DNA of 64,000 nt from Candidatus Gastranaerophilales bacterium (GTDB lineage: Bacteria; Cyanobacteriota; Vampirovibrionia; Gastranaerophilales; Gastranaerophilaceae), in assembly GCA_944323135.1 (NCBI GenBank), contig CALURI010000001.1:62001-126000 (forward strand), given 5' to 3'. The notes beneath the pieces are model-generated. The model did not search any database and was not told the origin of the DNA. It was given only the letters and a program-made list of their open reading frames with translations. Each line of letters starts with the position of its first letter. The first letter of the stretch is position 1. This document shows positions 10,113 to 60,774 of the stretch, piece by piece. Position numbers and translations under genes: made by a program.

Positions 10113-10909
10113 ATGGATAGAGAAGAGCTGAAAATCGCCCCCCCCCCGAACAGCAAAATATTGTAAAAAATTTAAAAAAAAGACTTAACTTTCATCCAAA
10201 ATTATGCCATATTAGTGATATGAAACATCACTTTAAATTTTTAGGTTTTACTTTAGCGGAAGTTCTCATTACTTTAGGTATCATTGGAGTAGTGGCTGCA
10301 TTAACAATGCCTTCGTTAATCACAAATTATCAGAAAAAAGCAACTGCTAAAAAACTTGCCCGATTTTATTCAACAATGAGTCAAGCTATTCTTAGATGGG
10401 AACAAGATGAAGGGCTTGCACCTGAAGATATTAAATTCAGTTCAGATATCATTCTTAACGGTGCAAATACGCAAAAATGGTATAATGAAACAATTGGACA
10501 ATACATAGAAAATATATCACAAAAAACGACTTCTAAAGCATTTTCTGTTGCCCTTAAAGACGGTTCAGGATTTGATGCTTATATAAAAAGTGCAAACTCT
10601 ATGTATATATTTTACTGCATTGAATATAAATATTGTAGAGTTCCTAATGACCCAAATGCAGAGGAAGGATATTTCAATGGAAAAACAAGTTTTCTTTTTG
10701 CTATTTCAAATGGTAAATTAATAACATCCCTTGCTGATTCACAAAATAAAACAAGAGAAACTCTCTTAGAAAAATGCAAATATGGGAATACAGATAATCC
10801 ATCAATAAGCTCAAAAGGCAGAAGGCATGAATGCACAAGATTAATTCAAATCGATGGCTGGGAGATAAGAGACGATTATCCTTGGAATCAAATTATGCTT
10901 GAAAATTAA
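10113..10909 (+). CDS. Prepilin-like protein A, out of frame at a C10 tract
   Basis: Type IV pilin/pseudopilin-like protein. An AGGAGG site (10101-10106) is followed by ATG 10113, which reads MDREELKIAPPP and then, with the C10 tract as given, stops after 17 codons at 10164. With one more C the frame runs on through MKHHFKFLG to the motif G|FTLAEVLITLGIIG and to the stop at 10909, giving 265 residues. G|F would be the prepilin peptidase site, and the segment after it is the hydrophobic assembly helix. The ATG at 10220 gives a typical 9-residue leader but has no clear ribosome site, so it may be a weak secondary start. The C-terminal domain (TSFLFAISNGKLI and several cysteines) is of the kind seen in small pseudopilins. 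Its exact role is unknown. Confidence 0.8.
10138..10147 (+). repeat. C10 homopolymer in prepilin A
   Basis: Ten consecutive Cs at nucleotides 26-35 of the ORF starting at 10113. The distance from that ATG to the prepilin reading frame is 2 modulo 3, so C11 or C8 joins the two frames. C runs of this length are otherwise absent from this AT-rich window except at the other three prepilin genes. Confidence 0.95.
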
Positions 10910-15302: not shown

Positions 15303-16631
15303 ATGATAGGGAAAATAAAATTCTATCCTGCTTTAATAACAGCCAAAAGTGCATATCTTGCAATCAAACTCCTCAGCAAATCCTCAGGAACGTCATTTGC
15401 CGGAATGGTTGCTTTGAAAATATGCCCTGATTTTTTAAAGTATTGTTCCAAATATGTAAAAAAACGAATAATTACAATTACAGGAACTAACGGCAAATCC
15501 ACAACATCAGGGCTAATTGCGCATATCCTTGAAGTCGCAAACCAAAAAGTTATACACAATCTTAAAGGTGCAAATATGCTCACAGGAGTTGCAAACGTTT
15601 TTGCGCTTGAAATTGAACCTTTAAAAAAATTTGATTACGCGGTAATTGAATCTGATGAAGCATATTTAACTAAACTCTATGACTATTTAAAATCCGATTA
15701 TCTTGTAGTAACAAACCTTTTCCGTGACCAACTCGACAGATACGGAGAATTGAATACCACTGCAGGATTTATAAAAAACGCAATCGATAAAAATCCAGAT
15801 TTAAAACTTGTTTTAAACGCAGATGACCCGATTGTCGCAACATTTAACCGGACTAAATATGCAGTTTATTACGGATTTGAAAATGTCGAATATCACTGTA
15901 CTTATGAGCACAAATCAAATGCTCCCTCAGAAGTATTTAATTGTTCCTGTAACGAAGAACTCAAATATTCAAAACAATTCTTTGCACAACAAGGGCACTA
16001 TTATTGTCCAAAATGCGGCTACAAACGTCCTCAATGCAACTATCCAGCAAACGTGAAAATTTATGATGATTATTCAATAATTTCAATTGAAAACAAAGGC
16101 ATAACTTTTGAATTTAAAATAAATCTCACAGGACTTTATAATGCATATAATGTATTAGCTGCAATATCTTTCGGATTTGAAGCAGGATTAAATCAACAAG
16201 AAATTCAAAAAGCCCTTGATACATATAAAGCAATCTTCGGACGTACCGAAAAATGCACTATTAATGGAAATCCAGCAATAATTCAACTTATCAAAAATCC
16301 GACAGGAGCAAGTGAAGTTTTAAAAACCGTTGATTTAAAATCAAATATAGTAATTGCAATTAATGATAATTATGCAGACGGACGTGATATCTCTTGGCTT
16401 TGGGATAGTGATTTTGAGCAATTGAAAAATGCTGAAAAACTTATTATAACATCAGGCACAAGAGCAAATGATATGGCGGTAAGATTAAAATATGCAGGAG
16501 TACCGCAAGAAAAAATTCTGGTAGAACCAAATTTAAAAAAAGCAATAAATAAAGCGACAACAGAAGGTAAAACAACAATATTACCTTCTTATACAGCACT
16601 TTTAAAGCTTACAGCAGAAAGAGGGAAATAA
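15303..16631 (+). CDS. murT: MurT-like Mur ligase (lipid II isoglutaminyl synthase subunit)
   Basis: Mur-ligase-fold protein of 442 residues with the P-loop TITGTNGKSTTSG, a four-cysteine zinc-ribbon insertion (C-x-C near residue 217 and CPKC near 238) and the C-terminal DUF1727 domain with NDNYADGRDISWLWD, whose aspartate is essential in MurT. In Gram-positives MurT pairs with the glutaminase GatD to amidate the D-Glu of lipid II. Here gatD is not adjacent: pdxJ follows after 2 bases. Either gatD is elsewhere or this enzyme works differently. Confidence 0.85.
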   Translation: MIGKIKFYPALITAKSAYLAIKLLSKSSGTSFAGMVALKICPDFLKYCSKYVKKRIITITGTNGKSTTSGLIAHILEVANQKVIHNLKGANMLTGVANVFALEIEPLKKFDYAVIESDEAYLTKLYDYLKSDYLVVTNLFRDQLDRYGELNTTAGFIKNAIDKNPDLKLVLNADDPIVATFNRTKYAVYYGFENVEYHCTYEHKSNAPSEVFNCSCNEELKYSKQFFAQQGHYYCPKCGYKRPQCNYPANVKIYDDYSIISIENKGITFEFKINLTGLYNAYNVLAAISFGFEAGLNQQEIQKALDTYKAIFGRTEKCTINGNPAIIQLIKNPTGASEVLKTVDLKSNIVIAINDNYADGRDISWLWDSDFEQLKNAEKLIITSGTRANDMAVRLKYAGVPQEKILVEPNLKKAINKATTEGKTTILPSYTALLKLTAERGK

Positions 16632-17360: not shown

Positions 17361-17675
17361 ATGAAAACCGAAAAAGAAATTGCGGAAGAAATGGCTCAAG
17401 TTGTTGAACAAATGCGTCTTGATGACATAGAAGACAATCCTGACATTATAGATGAATACTTTGACTGTGACTGCTGCGGAGAAAATAAATGTCTTGCAGG
17501 CTCTATTGAATATGAAGGTTACAGACTATGCAATGATTGTGTTCTTCTTGCAGAAACAGGTTTTGCTCTCGGAAAAATTAAAACAGTAAAAGACCTTATT
17601 GACGTAATTGAAGATAAGCATCTGGAAGCACTTTCAAACTTTGTAAAAGAAGAAGAAAAACGCTTAAATAACTGA
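17361..17675 (+). CDS. Small zinc-ribbon-like protein, unknown function
   Basis: Not recognised. The 104 residues have an acidic N-terminal helix, then paired cysteines (CDCCGENKC near residue 35-43 and CNDC near 57-60) that should bind one zinc ion, and a C-terminal helical part (VKDLIDVIEDKHLEALSNFVKEEEKR). A GGAG ribosome site precedes the ATG. Co-transcribed with pdxJ. Confidence 0.75.
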   Translation: MKTEKEIAEEMAQVVEQMRLDDIEDNPDIIDEYFDCDCCGENKCLAGSIEYEGYRLCNDCVLLAETGFALGKIKTVKDLIDVIEDKHLEALSNFVKEEEKRLNN

Positions 17676-25588: not shown

Positions 25589-26439
25589 TTAATCATCTTC
25601 TTCTACATTCTTATATTGTAATTTGCCGCCAGATAAAATACTGAATAAGCTGTTTGAGCCAAAAACATTCCATTGAGATTTACCTATTTTATCAGCCCAT
25701 ACAGTTACACCAAATGCATCATAACCAAACTTATTAGGTCTTTTGGGACCATTTACATCTATATATATAGCGCCACAATCATTACGAGTTTGAGTCCAAG
25801 TTACAGGAGTACCATCAGGATTGTATATCATATTACCGTCTGAATCCAATGAAGTTCCTGTAACAACAGTATCAACACATTTGTTGCCTAGCGAAAAAAA
25901 TATAACTCCATTATCAGGTAAAATTATTGCAGGAAGAGATAAACGAGAATATTTATTTTTATAACTTGACATTAACGCTTGATAATTCAAATCTTTACAT
26001 AATTTGTCATTCGAAGTCGAAAGACATAAATGTCCGTTAGAAATATATTTTGAAAAATTTGTAGCAACATCATTAGCAGTTTCTGCTCCGGCATATAAAA
26101 CAGAATTATCTCCCGGAATTCCTGCATCTGCCTGAGCGAGTTTCAATGCTTGTAGAACTATTGAATAATCTTTTTTAGCCTTTGTAATTACTTCTTTTTC
26201 CTTATAATTCGCAATTAATGAAGGCAAAGTCATTGCAGCAACGACTCCGATAATTCCTAAAGTAATTAAAACTTCTGCAAGTGTAAAACCTTTAAATTTA
26301 ATCATTCCAACTCCATTATAATAGTGATAATACACATCACCATTATAACAATTTTTTTGTTTTTTGCAAGCTTTTAAAACATATAAGGAGCCTAGAAACG
26401 CCCCCCCCCCGACTTAACGGTTCTTAACAATCTTATCAT
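25589..26439 (-). CDS. Prepilin-like protein C, out of frame at a G10 tract
   Basis: AAGGAG lies 6 bases before ATG 26439, which reads MIRLLRTVKSGGG and stops after 15 codons. One more G in the tract (26401-26410) fuses this frame to FLGSLYVLKACKK and on to MIKFKG|FTLAEVLITLGIIG, giving 283 residues ending at 25589. A second start is plausible at ATG 26304, with GGAG just upstream, giving a normal 6-residue leader; so this gene may be partly expressed even out of frame. The C-terminal domain is pseudopilin-like with DNGVIFFSLGNKC and IYIDVNGPKRPNKFGYDAFGV, resembling small prepilins that display a disulfide-bonded globular head. Confidence 0.78.
26401..26410 (-). repeat. G10 homopolymer in prepilin C
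   Basis: C10 on the plus strand, G10 in the mRNA, at nucleotides 30-39 of the ORF starting at 26439. The offset to the prepilin frame is again 2 modulo 3, so one extra base joins the frames. The plus-strand flanks (GAGCCTAGAAACG before, GACTTAACGGTTCTTAACA after) resemble those of the tract at 59468. Confidence 0.95.
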
Positions 26440-53080: not shown

Positions 53081-53880
53081 ATGTTCTATTTAAAAGCGTT
53101 AAGGGTTGCCCCCCCCCCGCAAAGGTCGCTTATATCAAGGGAAATAATGGGTTTAATTTAACAAAATCTTTTGCAGATAAAATTTTATCGGATAACTATT
53201 CTTGTGCTTTTACCCTCGCTGAAGTTTTAATTACTTTAGGAATTATTGGTGTGGTTGCAGCACTTACAATGCCGGCTCTTATTAGTCATCACAAAAAAAT
53301 GGAGACTTCTGCAAGATTAAAAAAATTTTATTCATCTATGGAACAGGCAATAAAACTTAGCGAAATCGATAACTGGAATTCGGAAGAATGGACAAAAGCT
53401 TCAACGCAAAAAGATGAAAACGGGAACGTTGATTATGAAGCTAACGGAAAAATATCAAAAGAATTTTTTATGACATATTTAGCTCCATATTTTAAATACA
53501 CTAAAATCGTTGACGGGATTAATAATGTAGATGAAGACGGGAATAATACAGGCAGCGGAACTCAAACCACCGTTTATCTCGCAGACGGTTCAACATTCAG
53601 TTTCAATAACGGTAGCTGCATAGACATCATTTTTGATTCAAATGGAAACAGCAAGCCAAATATTCAGGGAAAAGACAAATTTGTATTCTATATGTGTTTT
53701 ACAAATTCATCTAAAAAAAACGTATGTGGAAACAGTAATAAAACTTTTTGCACAAGAAGACAAGCTTACAATAGTAGAACTGAAATCGTTGAGGCCTGTA
53801 AAACGCATACATATTATTGTTCAGCACTTTTAGAATATGATAACTGGGAATTTAAGTCAGATTACCCGCACAGGTTATAA
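53081..53880 (+). CDS. Prepilin-like protein B, out of frame at a C10 tract
   Basis: An AAGGAGG site lies 6 bases before ATG 53081, which reads MFYLKALRVAPPP and, with C10, stops at 53161 after 26 codons. One extra C links it to AKVAYIKGNNGFNLTKSF and then SCA|FTLAEVLITLGIIG, giving 266 residues to the stop at 53880. No ATG, GTG or TTG start lies between the tract and the pilin motif in that frame (a GTG inside the hydrophobic helix, at 53251, is not a real start), so expression depends on tract length. The C-terminal domain is Cys-containing and pseudopilin-like (VYLADGSTFSFNNGSCIDIIFDS). It is inserted head-on between infB and rbfA and overlaps the infB stop by 6 bases. Confidence 0.82.
53109..53118 (+). 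repeat. C10 homopolymer in prepilin B
   Basis: Nucleotides 29-38 of the ORF beginning at 53081. The offset to the prepilin frame is 2 modulo 3. The encoded LRVAPPP resembles LKIAPPP encoded at the prepilin A tract. Confidence 0.95.
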
Positions 53881-57786: not shown

Positions 57787-59537
57787 TTAAAAGAGAAATT
57801 TCGCAGGTTTTATATGTTTTAAATTACAAGAATAACCGTTTTCACCTGCGCAGGACAATTCTATAGGCACTCCACTGCAATAAGGTGTAGCTGCTGATAT
57901 ATAACCGGTTGAGCAAGCTCCTTCTTTAAAAGATACACTCTTTTTCAACCAATATCTGTTACGGGAACCGTTTGCTCCAATAGTTTCATGTTCCACACTC
58001 ACCATTAAATGATTCCGACTGTCTCCGCCTGACAAACCGGGGTGAGAATTATCATAAGCCGGTATAACTGTTCCAGACATAGTTATATAAAAAGGATAAA
58101 CATCTTCCCATAAAACAGAATTACCTTTATCACCATCTATGTCAACATAAACAGTGTAACCATAGGAATTAATATTTGCCACACCGTTATAACCGCCTCC
58201 ATCTGTATTACCGGACAGTTCTGCTATTTCGCGGGGATTTTGACGAACATTATATAAACGCATACCGTTACGCAATATCAAATCAGGTTCTTTCCCGCTG
58301 AAATCTTCGGAATTTAAAGGAACTGCATCACCGGAACATTCAATACTGCCGCCTTTTGTATTTACATACCCGGCAAACATTTTACAAAAGTTTTCGCCGT
58401 TCCGAGGTAATGTACGCGGTTCAACTACACATTTACAATCGTACTCTTCATAATTCCAGCTATATCCTGCGTTGCATGCCGGCGGCCAATGTGAAGGCTT
58501 TACACTGTAATCGCAAACACCAGGTGTTGGATCATAACCTTCATATCCGTGAGAACAATAGTCACGTTGTTGGGTATAAGTATCGGGGACATCACAATTT
58601 ACTACAACGTCAGATCCTGAAGGCTCATCATCACCAGGTTCAGGATCCGGCTTTGGTTCGTTACGTACTAAAATCCCTAAAATTGATTTAGATTCAGTAC
58701 CATCGTAACGATATGTACAAGAATTATAATCATAATGAGGCTCTGAATAATAACCACAACTCATACTATCTTCTACTCCATGATAAAAGTCTCCGTCATT
58801 ACAAGGGTAAATACATCCTTCAGCAGTACTTAATCCGGGGTATGCATAAGTTCCATAATACCCGCCATATTTCCCAGGACATTTATATGGAGTAGCTTTC
58901 CCAATTTCAAGTAAGTTTGCATTATAGGCACCATAAAAAAGATCAGAAACAACATGATTAGGGCATGCTGCTGAAGCTTCGTCTAAAGTTCTCGGGACAA
59001 CACCATAAACAACCTCGTTACAAGGGGGACTATCATCACCAACATAAATAATCCCGTCAACCTCATTTGAAGTAATTGTACGTCCTTCCCCCGGTATGGT
59101 CATAATCTCTTTACCGCAAGCATAATACCCCATTGTAGGAGGAGTATCTACAACAAAATATGCTTGCGCACTTGATTTAAACAGATTAAGCACACCCGAA
59201 AAAATATTATTAGCCAGCTTATAGTTTTCTAAAATACTATATGTTTGGATATACATTTCATCATTTGACTTAAACTCAGAATACATATTACGTGAGACAT
59301 TACGAAGCACAGAATAAGCTGAATAATATGTATAAGTTATAATATTATCCAGTTTTGCCTTTGTAACACGTATACTAACAGAAACTATAACCGCTACAAC
59401 AAGTAAAACTATTACAATCTCAGCTAATGTATAAGCCCCGAAAGTTTTTTTAGGAGCTAGGAAAGCGCCCCCCCCCCAACTTTACAATTATTAACACTTG
59501 GGACAAAATTTACTGGGAATTTTCTAAATGCAGACAT
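57787..59537 (-). CDS. Large prepilin-like protein D, out of frame at a G10 tract
   Basis: ATG 59537 (or in-frame ATG 59561, after a GGAG) reads MSAFRKFPVNFVPSVNNCKV and with G10 stops after about 26 codons. One more G continues through GGGGAFLAPKKTFGA to YTLAEIVIVLLVVAVIV, a prepilin-type helix, and on to 57787, giving 583 residues. No usable start lies between tract and motif. The remainder is unusually long for a prepilin and rich in Gly, Tyr, Pro and Cys (many CNDG/CGYYS/CSHGYEGY-type segments), with a DIDGDKG motif that looks like a calcium-binding loop near the C-terminus. I suggest a surface or adhesin-like minor pilin; that is inference. Confidence 0.78.
59468..59477 (-). repeat. G10 homopolymer in prepilin D
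   Basis: C10 on the plus strand, G10 in the mRNA, at nucleotides 61-70 of the ORF from ATG 59537. The offset to the prepilin frame is again one base short. Plus-strand flanks GAGCTAGGAAAGCG and AACTTTACAATTATTAACA match those of the prepilin C tract. Confidence 0.95.
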
Positions 59538-59592
59538 ATTAATTACTTCTATCTCCTTCATAAATCGCTCCATAAAATTCTTACATATATTT

Positions 59593-59621
59593 ATATTAAC
59601 ATATACCAAAACAATTTTCAA
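59593..59621 (-). promoter_or_regulatory. Promoter of prepilin D
   Basis: TTGAAA (59616-59621), 17 bases, TAATAT (59593-59598) on the minus strand, as in the prepilin C promoter. Confidence 0.55.
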
Positions 59622-59641
59622 GTAGACAAATTGAAAAATGC

Positions 59642-59669
59642 TTGAATATCAATAATTTTTCGGTATAAT
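59642..59669 (+). promoter_or_regulatory. Promoter of the DUF475 gene
   Basis: TTGAAT (59642-59647), 16 bases, TATAAT (59664-59669), about 28 bases before ATG 59698; divergent from the prepilin D promoter. Confidence 0.65.
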
Positions 59670-59697
59670 TAATAAGAGCAAAAGGAGAAAATTCAAA

Positions 59698-60774
59698 ATG
59701 TTGGAATATTTTTTAGGTTCTTATATAGTAACTATTGCGGGGTTAATTGGTGCATATTTCTGGGGAGAACATGTACATAACGGCACAGGACTTACTTGTG
59801 TTTTTATTGCAATTGTTTTAGGTATTTTAGAAATTAGTTTATCTTTTGACAACGCAGTTGTTAATGCGATGAAACTCGAAAAAATGAGCCATAAGTGGCG
59901 CCACAGATTTTTAACTTGGGGAATTATAATAGCTGTTTTTGGCATGAGATTTTTATTCCCGATACTTGTAGTTTCAATTTTTGCTAAATTAAAAATGATT
60001 GAAGTAGCTAATATTGCACTTACTAATGCAGATAAATATGCATATTATCTGCATCAAACACATGCGCCTATTGTTACTTTCGGCGGAATGTTTCTTATTA
60101 TGCTTTTCTTAAATTATTTTTTCAATCATCAAAAAGAAGTTCATTGGATTAGACCTATTGAATATTGGCTAGCACATTTTGACCATATCAAAGGTATTGA
60201 AATTGTAATTTCACTTTTTATGCTGCTTGCTACTCAAAATTTTGTACCTGCGGAACAAAAAATTCATGTTATGATTGCAGGAATTTCAGGAATTATAACT
60301 TATTTATTAATTGACGGTTTTACTCATTATCTTGAAAAACATGAAGAAATGCGCCTTGCAAATTGCGATGTTAAAGGAGCAAGCTGTACAGGATTAATTA
60401 GTTTTCTTTACCTTGAATTAATCGATGCATCATTTTCTTTGGATGGAGTTTTAGGTGCATTTGCGCTAAGTAAAGATATCATAATTATTTCAATAGGATT
60501 AGCAATAGGAGCTATGTTTGTTCGTTCTCTTACAATAATGCTTGTTGAAAAGAAAACTTTAAAACAATTTTTATATTTAGAACATGGTGCTCATTGGGCA
60601 ATTGGAGCTTTAGCTTGTTTAATGCTGGTTTCTACAGTAAAAGAAATACCGGAAATCGTAACAGGAGGAATAGGGTTAGGTTTTATTGTCGCAGCATTTA
60701 TATCTTCAATTATGCATAATAAAAAAATGGAAAGACTGTTAGCTCAAGAACAAAATGGCGGTGAAAATGCTTAA
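59698..60774 (+). CDS. DUF475 / TerC-superfamily membrane protein
   Basis: The 358 residues have about nine transmembrane helices and acidic residues inside helices (LEISLSFDNAVVNAMKLEKM and LELIDASFSLDGVLGAFALS), characteristic of DUF475, related to TerC metal/stress-resistance proteins. Ion transport or metal homeostasis is suspected but not shown. An AAAGGAG site precedes the ATG. It overlaps the glycosyltransferase gene by 20 bases. Confidence 0.9.
   Translation: MLEYFLGSYIVTIAGLIGAYFWGEHVHNGTGLTCVFIAIVLGILEISLSFDNAVVNAMKLEKMSHKWRHRFLTWGIIIAVFGMRFLFPILVVSIFAKLKMIEVANIALTNADKYAYYLHQTHAPIVTFGGMFLIMLFLNYFFNHQKEVHWIRPIEYWLAHFDHIKGIEIVISLFMLLATQNFVPAEQKIHVMIAGISGIITYLLIDGFTHYLEKHEEMRLANCDVKGASCTGLISFLYLELIDASFSLDGVLGAFALSKDIIIISIGLAIGAMFVRSLTIMLVEKKTLKQFLYLEHGAHWAIGALACLMLVSTVKEIPEIVTGGIGLGFIVAAFISSIMHNKKMERLLAQEQNGGENA

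Follow-up and report, generated by a model that had tools for sequence, protein, structure and literature searches.

Is a start codon that is cut off from its reading frame by a run of ten G's a defect of the gene, an error in the sequence, or a switch? A gene for a large prepilin-like protein, prepilin D, raises this question. It lies on the minus strand of the 64,000-nucleotide stretch of DNA analyzed here (hereafter the window), which comes from Candidatus Gastranaerophilales, a gut bacterium related to cyanobacteria. The run (59468..59477, minus strand; C10 on the plus strand) is one base short of the prepilin frame.

Prepilin D and its tract

At the assembled length, translation from ATG 59537 gives MSAFRKFPVNFVPSVNNCKVGGGALS followed by a stop, a product of 26 aa; at G11, the same codon leads through ...GGGGAFLAPKKTFGAYTLAEI into a protein of 583 aa in all. 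A sequence-only reading of this DNA had claimed that G10 separates the ATG from the long prepilin frame, with a short product at G10 and a 583-residue product at G11, and translation before and after the addition of one base agreed with it on each count. ATG 59561 shares the frame of ATG 59537 and would give a product of 591 aa; it has a GGAG 6 nt upstream, ATG 59537 has an AAGGAG about 13 nt upstream, and because of the good spacing of the GGAG, ATG 59561 is probably the start. Judged from frame 0 translation and the GGAG spacing, the short ORF of the OFF state would begin at ATG 59561 (or at ATG 59537, which shares its frame), cross the tract, and end at a stop directly beyond it (59457..59561, minus strand). 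In the prepilin frame, a stop stands two codons ahead of the G run, and no ATG, GTG, or TTG was found between the tract and GTG 59310 (59308..59310, minus strand), the first mechanical start, which leaves out the signal and the greater part of the N-terminal helix. The ORF list holds just 57787-59310 for this gene (GTG start, 507 aa), and GAYTLAEIVIVLLVVAVIV, together with the remainder of that ORF, lies in a frame that can be reached from an ATG only with a run of 11. The further claim, that there is no alternative start and that a naive ORF search misses the prepilin signal, thus proved correct as well.

The predicted cleavage region (59422..59436, minus strand) reads GA/YTLAE, with the slash marking the cleavage site, and is linked to the ATG only at a tract length of 11 (or 8, or 14). 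This class III signal, GA/YTLAEIVIVLLVVAVIVSVS, with Glu at +5 and followed by a hydrophobic helix at residues 38-87, is typical of type IV prepilins. Prepilin D matched no Pfam or NCBIfam family, including N_methyl (PF07963); its motif, and not membership in a Pfam family, is what makes it prepilin-like. Of the three remaining prepilins in the window, two match N_methyl, one of them below the cut-off, and the third matches at the genome level; a prepilin peptidase (PF01478) is encoded in the same genome (G000:C7). In an AlphaFold model (16 rows, pTM 0.52), the mature frame (57787..59433, minus strand, stop codon included at the low end) is predicted to consist of a long pilin-type N-terminal helix, again at 38-87, a poorly modeled middle part of low confidence, and a confident beta-rich C-terminal domain from about residue 370. 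The best VIA row for this model, Dichelobacter FimA, is a weak match (Z 3.9, rmsd 4.7, 129 aligned) with nothing above it, and Foldseek found no match in the PDB at E<=0.001. The earlier description of the protein as Cys- and Gly-rich is only mildly true, with Cys at 3.6% and Gly at 9.9% of the 583 aa.

The closest copy of prepilin D, found in the Candidatus Gastranaerophilales MAG BRZ_PK__bin14 (G019; L071/L127), has the same leader and tract, but with G11. It is 98.9% identical in DNA to the prepilin D locus over 1.83 kb around the tract, and its uninterrupted ORF through leader and pilin encodes an intact prepilin of 583-591 residues. Tract length at this locus therefore differs between close relatives (G10 vs G11), as at a contingency locus. 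In the wider D family, some members have tracts of 10-12 (L074, L077, L078, L086, L088, and L094) and others lack a tract and have ordinary leaders such as MKNFLKKAYTLAEV. The tract-free N-terminus that the sequence-only reading had looked for in relatives as counter-evidence occurs only in distant members with ordinary short leaders (L072, L080, L082, and L083), and the closest copy keeps its tract. The 98.9% identity between the two species at the prepilin D locus (window 57787-59700, L071) can be set beside an average of 90% over the surrounding 6.4-kb alignment and 40-82% protein identity for most other matched prepilin bodies; because the locus stands above both, these identities suggest its recent transfer.

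A default-off register in the genome and the genus

The window contains three sister tracts, all with their G's on the minus strand and all needing a length of 11. Two belong to plus-strand genes and read as C10 (Pro) on the coding strand, at 10138..10147 (ATG 10113, prepilin to 10909) and 53109..53118 (ATG 53081, prepilin to 53880); the third, at 26401..26410, belongs to a minus-strand gene (ATG at 26439, prepilin to 25589) and reads as G10 (Gly). The four window tracts, each exactly 10 long and each in the 5' end of a prepilin gene, are not due to chance: eight G9 matches were found in the window versus a mean of 0.03 in shuffles. Runs of 6-9 G or C are absent from the window. In all four genes, a 5' coding mononucleotide tract sets the reading frame by its length, as in contingency loci. 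The prepilin body at window 53251-53880 matches Pfam DUF6613 (PF20318), a family of unknown function.

In the genome to which the window belongs (G000; 1.95 Mb, 34 contigs), there are 59 runs of G9-G11, 50 of which are exactly 10 long, and no runs of 7 or 8 were found in about 600 kb of sequence examined. Fifty-four of the 59 tracts have a ribosome site and start codon ahead of them, the distance usually being 7-10 codons, and a prepilin behind them; seen from the other side, of the 87 N_methyl matches, 51 lie no more than 400 nt downstream of a tract. Phase variation as such is well supported by the sequence data for prepilin D, and it was the single-gene view that proved too narrow, this gene being one of 54. 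The non-prepilin tracts (L033, L045, L048, and L070) show no clear switched gene. At L045 6025-6035, a leader of the usual G-type (ATGGAAAGATTTGTAAAAATTTTGAATACC) is followed by a G11 but not by a prepilin motif; this could be a remnant or another switched gene. At L048, two adjoining prepilins have almost identical leaders, one with G11 and the other with G10 (15868-15878 and 17456-17465), the former being the sole in-frame tract in the genome.

Tracts were present in 22 of 23 other sampled members of the genus, with 1 to 151 in each, and other families of the order have 0-6. In a tract-poor species (G021) with 128 N_methyl matches, the six leaders that were read are plain and short, e.g., MKKFNKKG/FTLAEV, and the part formed by leader and tract is therefore something added to an ordinary prepilin. 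Missing mismatch repair was rejected as the cause of slippage, since MutL is present in 10 of 10 genomes checked and full-length MutS1 in 9 of 10. In a partial survey of the literature, we found nothing on phase variation in Gastranaerophilales or Melainabacteria.

We determined the ON length, i.e., the length joining start and pilin with any of three added lengths allowed, for 163 linked genes from several genomes of the genus (54 from G000, 40 from G019, 43 from G006, and 26 from a mixed set), which are partly related by duplication and do not represent 163 independent cases. It is 11 (2 mod 3) in 152 of them (49/54, 39/40, 41/43, and 23/26, respectively), and the commonest tract length, taken from the assembly consensus, is 10 in every set; as assembled, 9 of the 163 are in frame. 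This register arises via three start-to-tract phases offset by three tract-to-pilin phases, and with several combinations in use it is not a single inherited arrangement. Most genes with a tract of 9 need +2, and six of the eight with a tract of 11 need 0, so that length varies around a fixed ON register; other best-match pairs between genomes also differ in tract length, by 9/10 or 10/11. Over 8,167 codons, there are 0 stops in the pilin frame and 832 and 590 in the other two. The zero is partly built in, because linked genes had to be open, and the weight therefore rests on the contrast with 832 and 590 and on the inclusion rate of 54/59. The simplest reading is that slippage has its equilibrium at 10 and that selection would have set the register such that 10 is off and its +1 neighbor is on.

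Strand polarity, flanking DNA, and leaders

All 59 tracts of G000 have their G's on the GC-skew-positive strand, which we take to be the leading strand, in 15 of 15 contigs (C16 having a skew near zero). The linked genes carry G on the coding strand in 32 cases and C in 22, and among neighbors gene direction is the same in 21 of 39 pairs (18 differ), tract strand in 44 of 44. The G's lie on one chromosome strand whatever the gene direction, with opposed genes carrying C10 and encoding Pro instead of Gly. In G006 (8 contigs, 77 tracts), the tract strand switches at two places only, as two replichores would, and the skew agrees with it in 20 of 20 stretches, in one marginally. Neighboring tracts agree in 67 of 68 pairs in G003 and in 26 of 28 in G019; the local GC skew of G019 is weak and matches the tract strand in about 15 of 20 long stretches, and that of its short stretches was too noisy to serve as a polarity test and was rejected. 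Runs of G4-G6 show only a mild strand bias. The G-strand of the tracts looks to follow the direction of DNA replication and not that of the gene.

The DNA around the tracts is also conserved. Read on the G-strand, a C directly precedes the tract in 159 of 163 cases and directly follows it in 156 of 163, the latter C usually having A or G next to it, and these C bases are kept in both gene directions and in all codon phases. Further downstream comes an RGCT. In co-oriented genes, its start falls 7-10 nt past the tract in 74 of 83 distinct flanks (shuffled mean 4.1), and in opposed genes it falls 9-11 nt past the tract in 25 of 35 (shuffled mean 1.0), counts in which paralog descent limits the number of independent cases. 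The flank of prepilin D, CGCTTTCCTAGCT (59455..59467, minus strand), is an instance of this C-R-N(4-6)-RGCT motif common to both gene directions. RGCT occurs in all three frames, and the peptides encoded by the flank DNA differ widely (LLA, SQLA, NLKL, and, on the other strand, REALRV); since the same DNA encodes quite different peptides, the constraint acts on the DNA. Both the strand rule independent of gene direction and the DNA-level flank look new. It is conceivable, although we consider it rather improbable, that C-G10-C-R-N4-6-RGCT serves as a dedicated DNA element locked to one strand. A factor coupled to replication would read it, holding dozens of tracts at exactly 10, and thus off, while permitting +1 steps; the tracts would then form a genome-wide, actively maintained slippage switchboard rather than passive contingency loci.

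Leaders and pilin bodies appear in different combinations. L040 of G000 and L189 of G019 have related bodies (78% identity) with opposite leader types, and their DNA homology starts from FTLAEVLITLG; in L062 and L168 (76% identity, opposite leader types), it begins within a few bases of the same segment, and within G019 the bodies of L173 and L181 are 90% identical with opposite leaders. The conserved N-methyl segment could be where crossovers occur: if two opposed prepilins underwent an inversion with its ends in this segment, the bodies would move, with leaders and tract polarity staying put. C-type leaders as inverted whole tract cassettes were rejected, as leaders of the two classes are unrelated past the shared near flank. 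In G019, leaders reach about 250 codons, open only in the +1 frame, and contain palindromic repeats; such long, repeat-bearing leaders may be tolerable if the prepilin peptidase removes them. These repeats, GTCATTGCGCA...TGCGCRATGAC, have a fold of about -34 kcal/mol and lie in frame within the leaders of L175 (G019:C16), L173, L181, and L168. Copies of their arms number 15 in 16.7 kb of leader versus 20 in 391 kb of longer stretches in G019, and a search of about 598 kb of G000 found no exact copy of either arm. Between the tract and FTLAE, many genes of G000 and G043 (e.g., L048, L049, and L231) have a conserved TGTTATAATAGTGATRTGNNNCATCAC, which encodes CYNSDxxHH and also looks like a -10 promoter box close to an old start codon.

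Proposed switch mechanism, alternatives, and known systems

The explanation we favor, with a probability of roughly 80%, is that the tract acts as an ON/OFF switch by replication slippage, that it sits in a disposable type IV prepilin leader, and that the genome has 54 such switches. Cells with G10 would make no prepilin from this gene, and single-base slippage in DNA replication would turn individual prepilins on in a minority of cells, with tracts switching within a population and cells differing in which few pilins of a large repertoire they display. The prepilin peptidase would then cut off the leader, whose sequence, Gly/Pro content, and length would be free to vary because of this removal. 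Strand-dependent growth or stability of G runs, or a factor reading the C-G10-C-R...RGCT site, may keep the tract on one replication strand.

The strongest rival, which we regard as unlikely, is programmed recoding, in which the DNA would stay at 10 while a +1 slip of RNA polymerase or a -1 shift of the ribosome on the run yields a small constant amount of every prepilin. Slippage in transcription at such runs is established in bacteria (PMC1088944, PMC5009743), and both the very uniform length of 10 and a correction that is nearly always +1 and hardly ever +2, as either event requires, would agree with it. However, the two gene classes differ in their mRNA, G10 in one and C10 in the other, and are nonetheless equal in length and need; strand polarity tracks replication, not transcription; and tracts of 9 and 11 occur with the ON register unchanged, including the near-identical copy of prepilin D at 11. 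Because rG10 and rC10 genes share their length and the same +1 need, we favor DNA over RNA as the slipping template, and as the polarity also belongs to replication, replication slippage over recoding.

Much less probable is a sequencing or assembly artefact, in which the true lengths are 11 and under-called by one. Homopolymers are error-prone, G runs are a known Illumina problem (PMC9187656), and nearly all genes would be intact at 11, but lengths of 9, 11, 12, and 14 do appear in assemblies, linked genes called at 11 are mostly in frame (6/8) and would be broken by a uniform -1 error, and independent assemblies of very different contiguity (G000, G006, and G019) share the same mode. That prepilin D and its sisters, although most are out of frame in the assembly, are decaying frameshifted pseudogenes is scarcely credible given frames open on both sides of the tract, an identical single-base offset in dozens of genes, ortholog bodies 70-99% identical without stops, and an intact copy of prepilin D.

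Beyond prepilin D itself, the larger finding is a genus-wide, default-off, replication-polarized set of putative G-tract switches on prepilins. It suggests large-scale pilus variation in a poorly studied gut lineage, with up to about 150 tracts per genome versus 29 in Campylobacter jejuni NCTC11168, and in nearly all tract-bearing prepilin genes the signal would escape standard annotation. A strand rule independent of gene direction also offers a natural test of leading- versus lagging-strand synthesis with respect to homopolymer length.

In the pilE/pilS system of Neisseria, silent partial copies donate sequence to a single expressed locus. A large pilin repertoire, a G-rich element near the pilin, and exchange of pilin segments are features in common. 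Unlike silent cassettes, which are donors without start or expression signals, all 54 genes here have a ribosome-site-like sequence and a start before the tract.

C. jejuni resembles the present case in its many poly-G/C tracts of 8-12 that switch surface genes, but its 29 loci are of mixed function and flanking sequence is reported to have no influence on slippage there, whereas the flank is conserved here; a default-off register and a strand rule are not reported in the portion of that account available to us (PMC4965091). At GnT hotspots, G runs on the leading strand mutate in a strand-dependent manner, and conversion of a 3' T to G extends the run (PMC12344412). Such conversion would be consistent with G tracts on the leading strand ending in C, not T, but it concerns point substitution at short runs in Pseudomonas and Salmonella and leaves the 5' C and the distal RGCT unexplained (PMC12344412).

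The sortase-dependent pilus clusters of Bifidobacterium breve UCC2003 contain an intragenic G-tract switch, and the reference tract length can be the minor one (PMC9187656). Replication polarity, a flank motif, and leader modularity, all seen here, are not described for B. breve in the available part of that source (PMC9187656). The likeness is close, with a gut commensal, a pilus gene, an intragenic G10-G11, a reference that is out of frame, and a single-base change fusing two ORFs; B. breve has two such loci, with sortase pili and a productive change of -1, and the genome studied here has about 54, with type IV prepilins and a productive change of +1 (PMC9187656).
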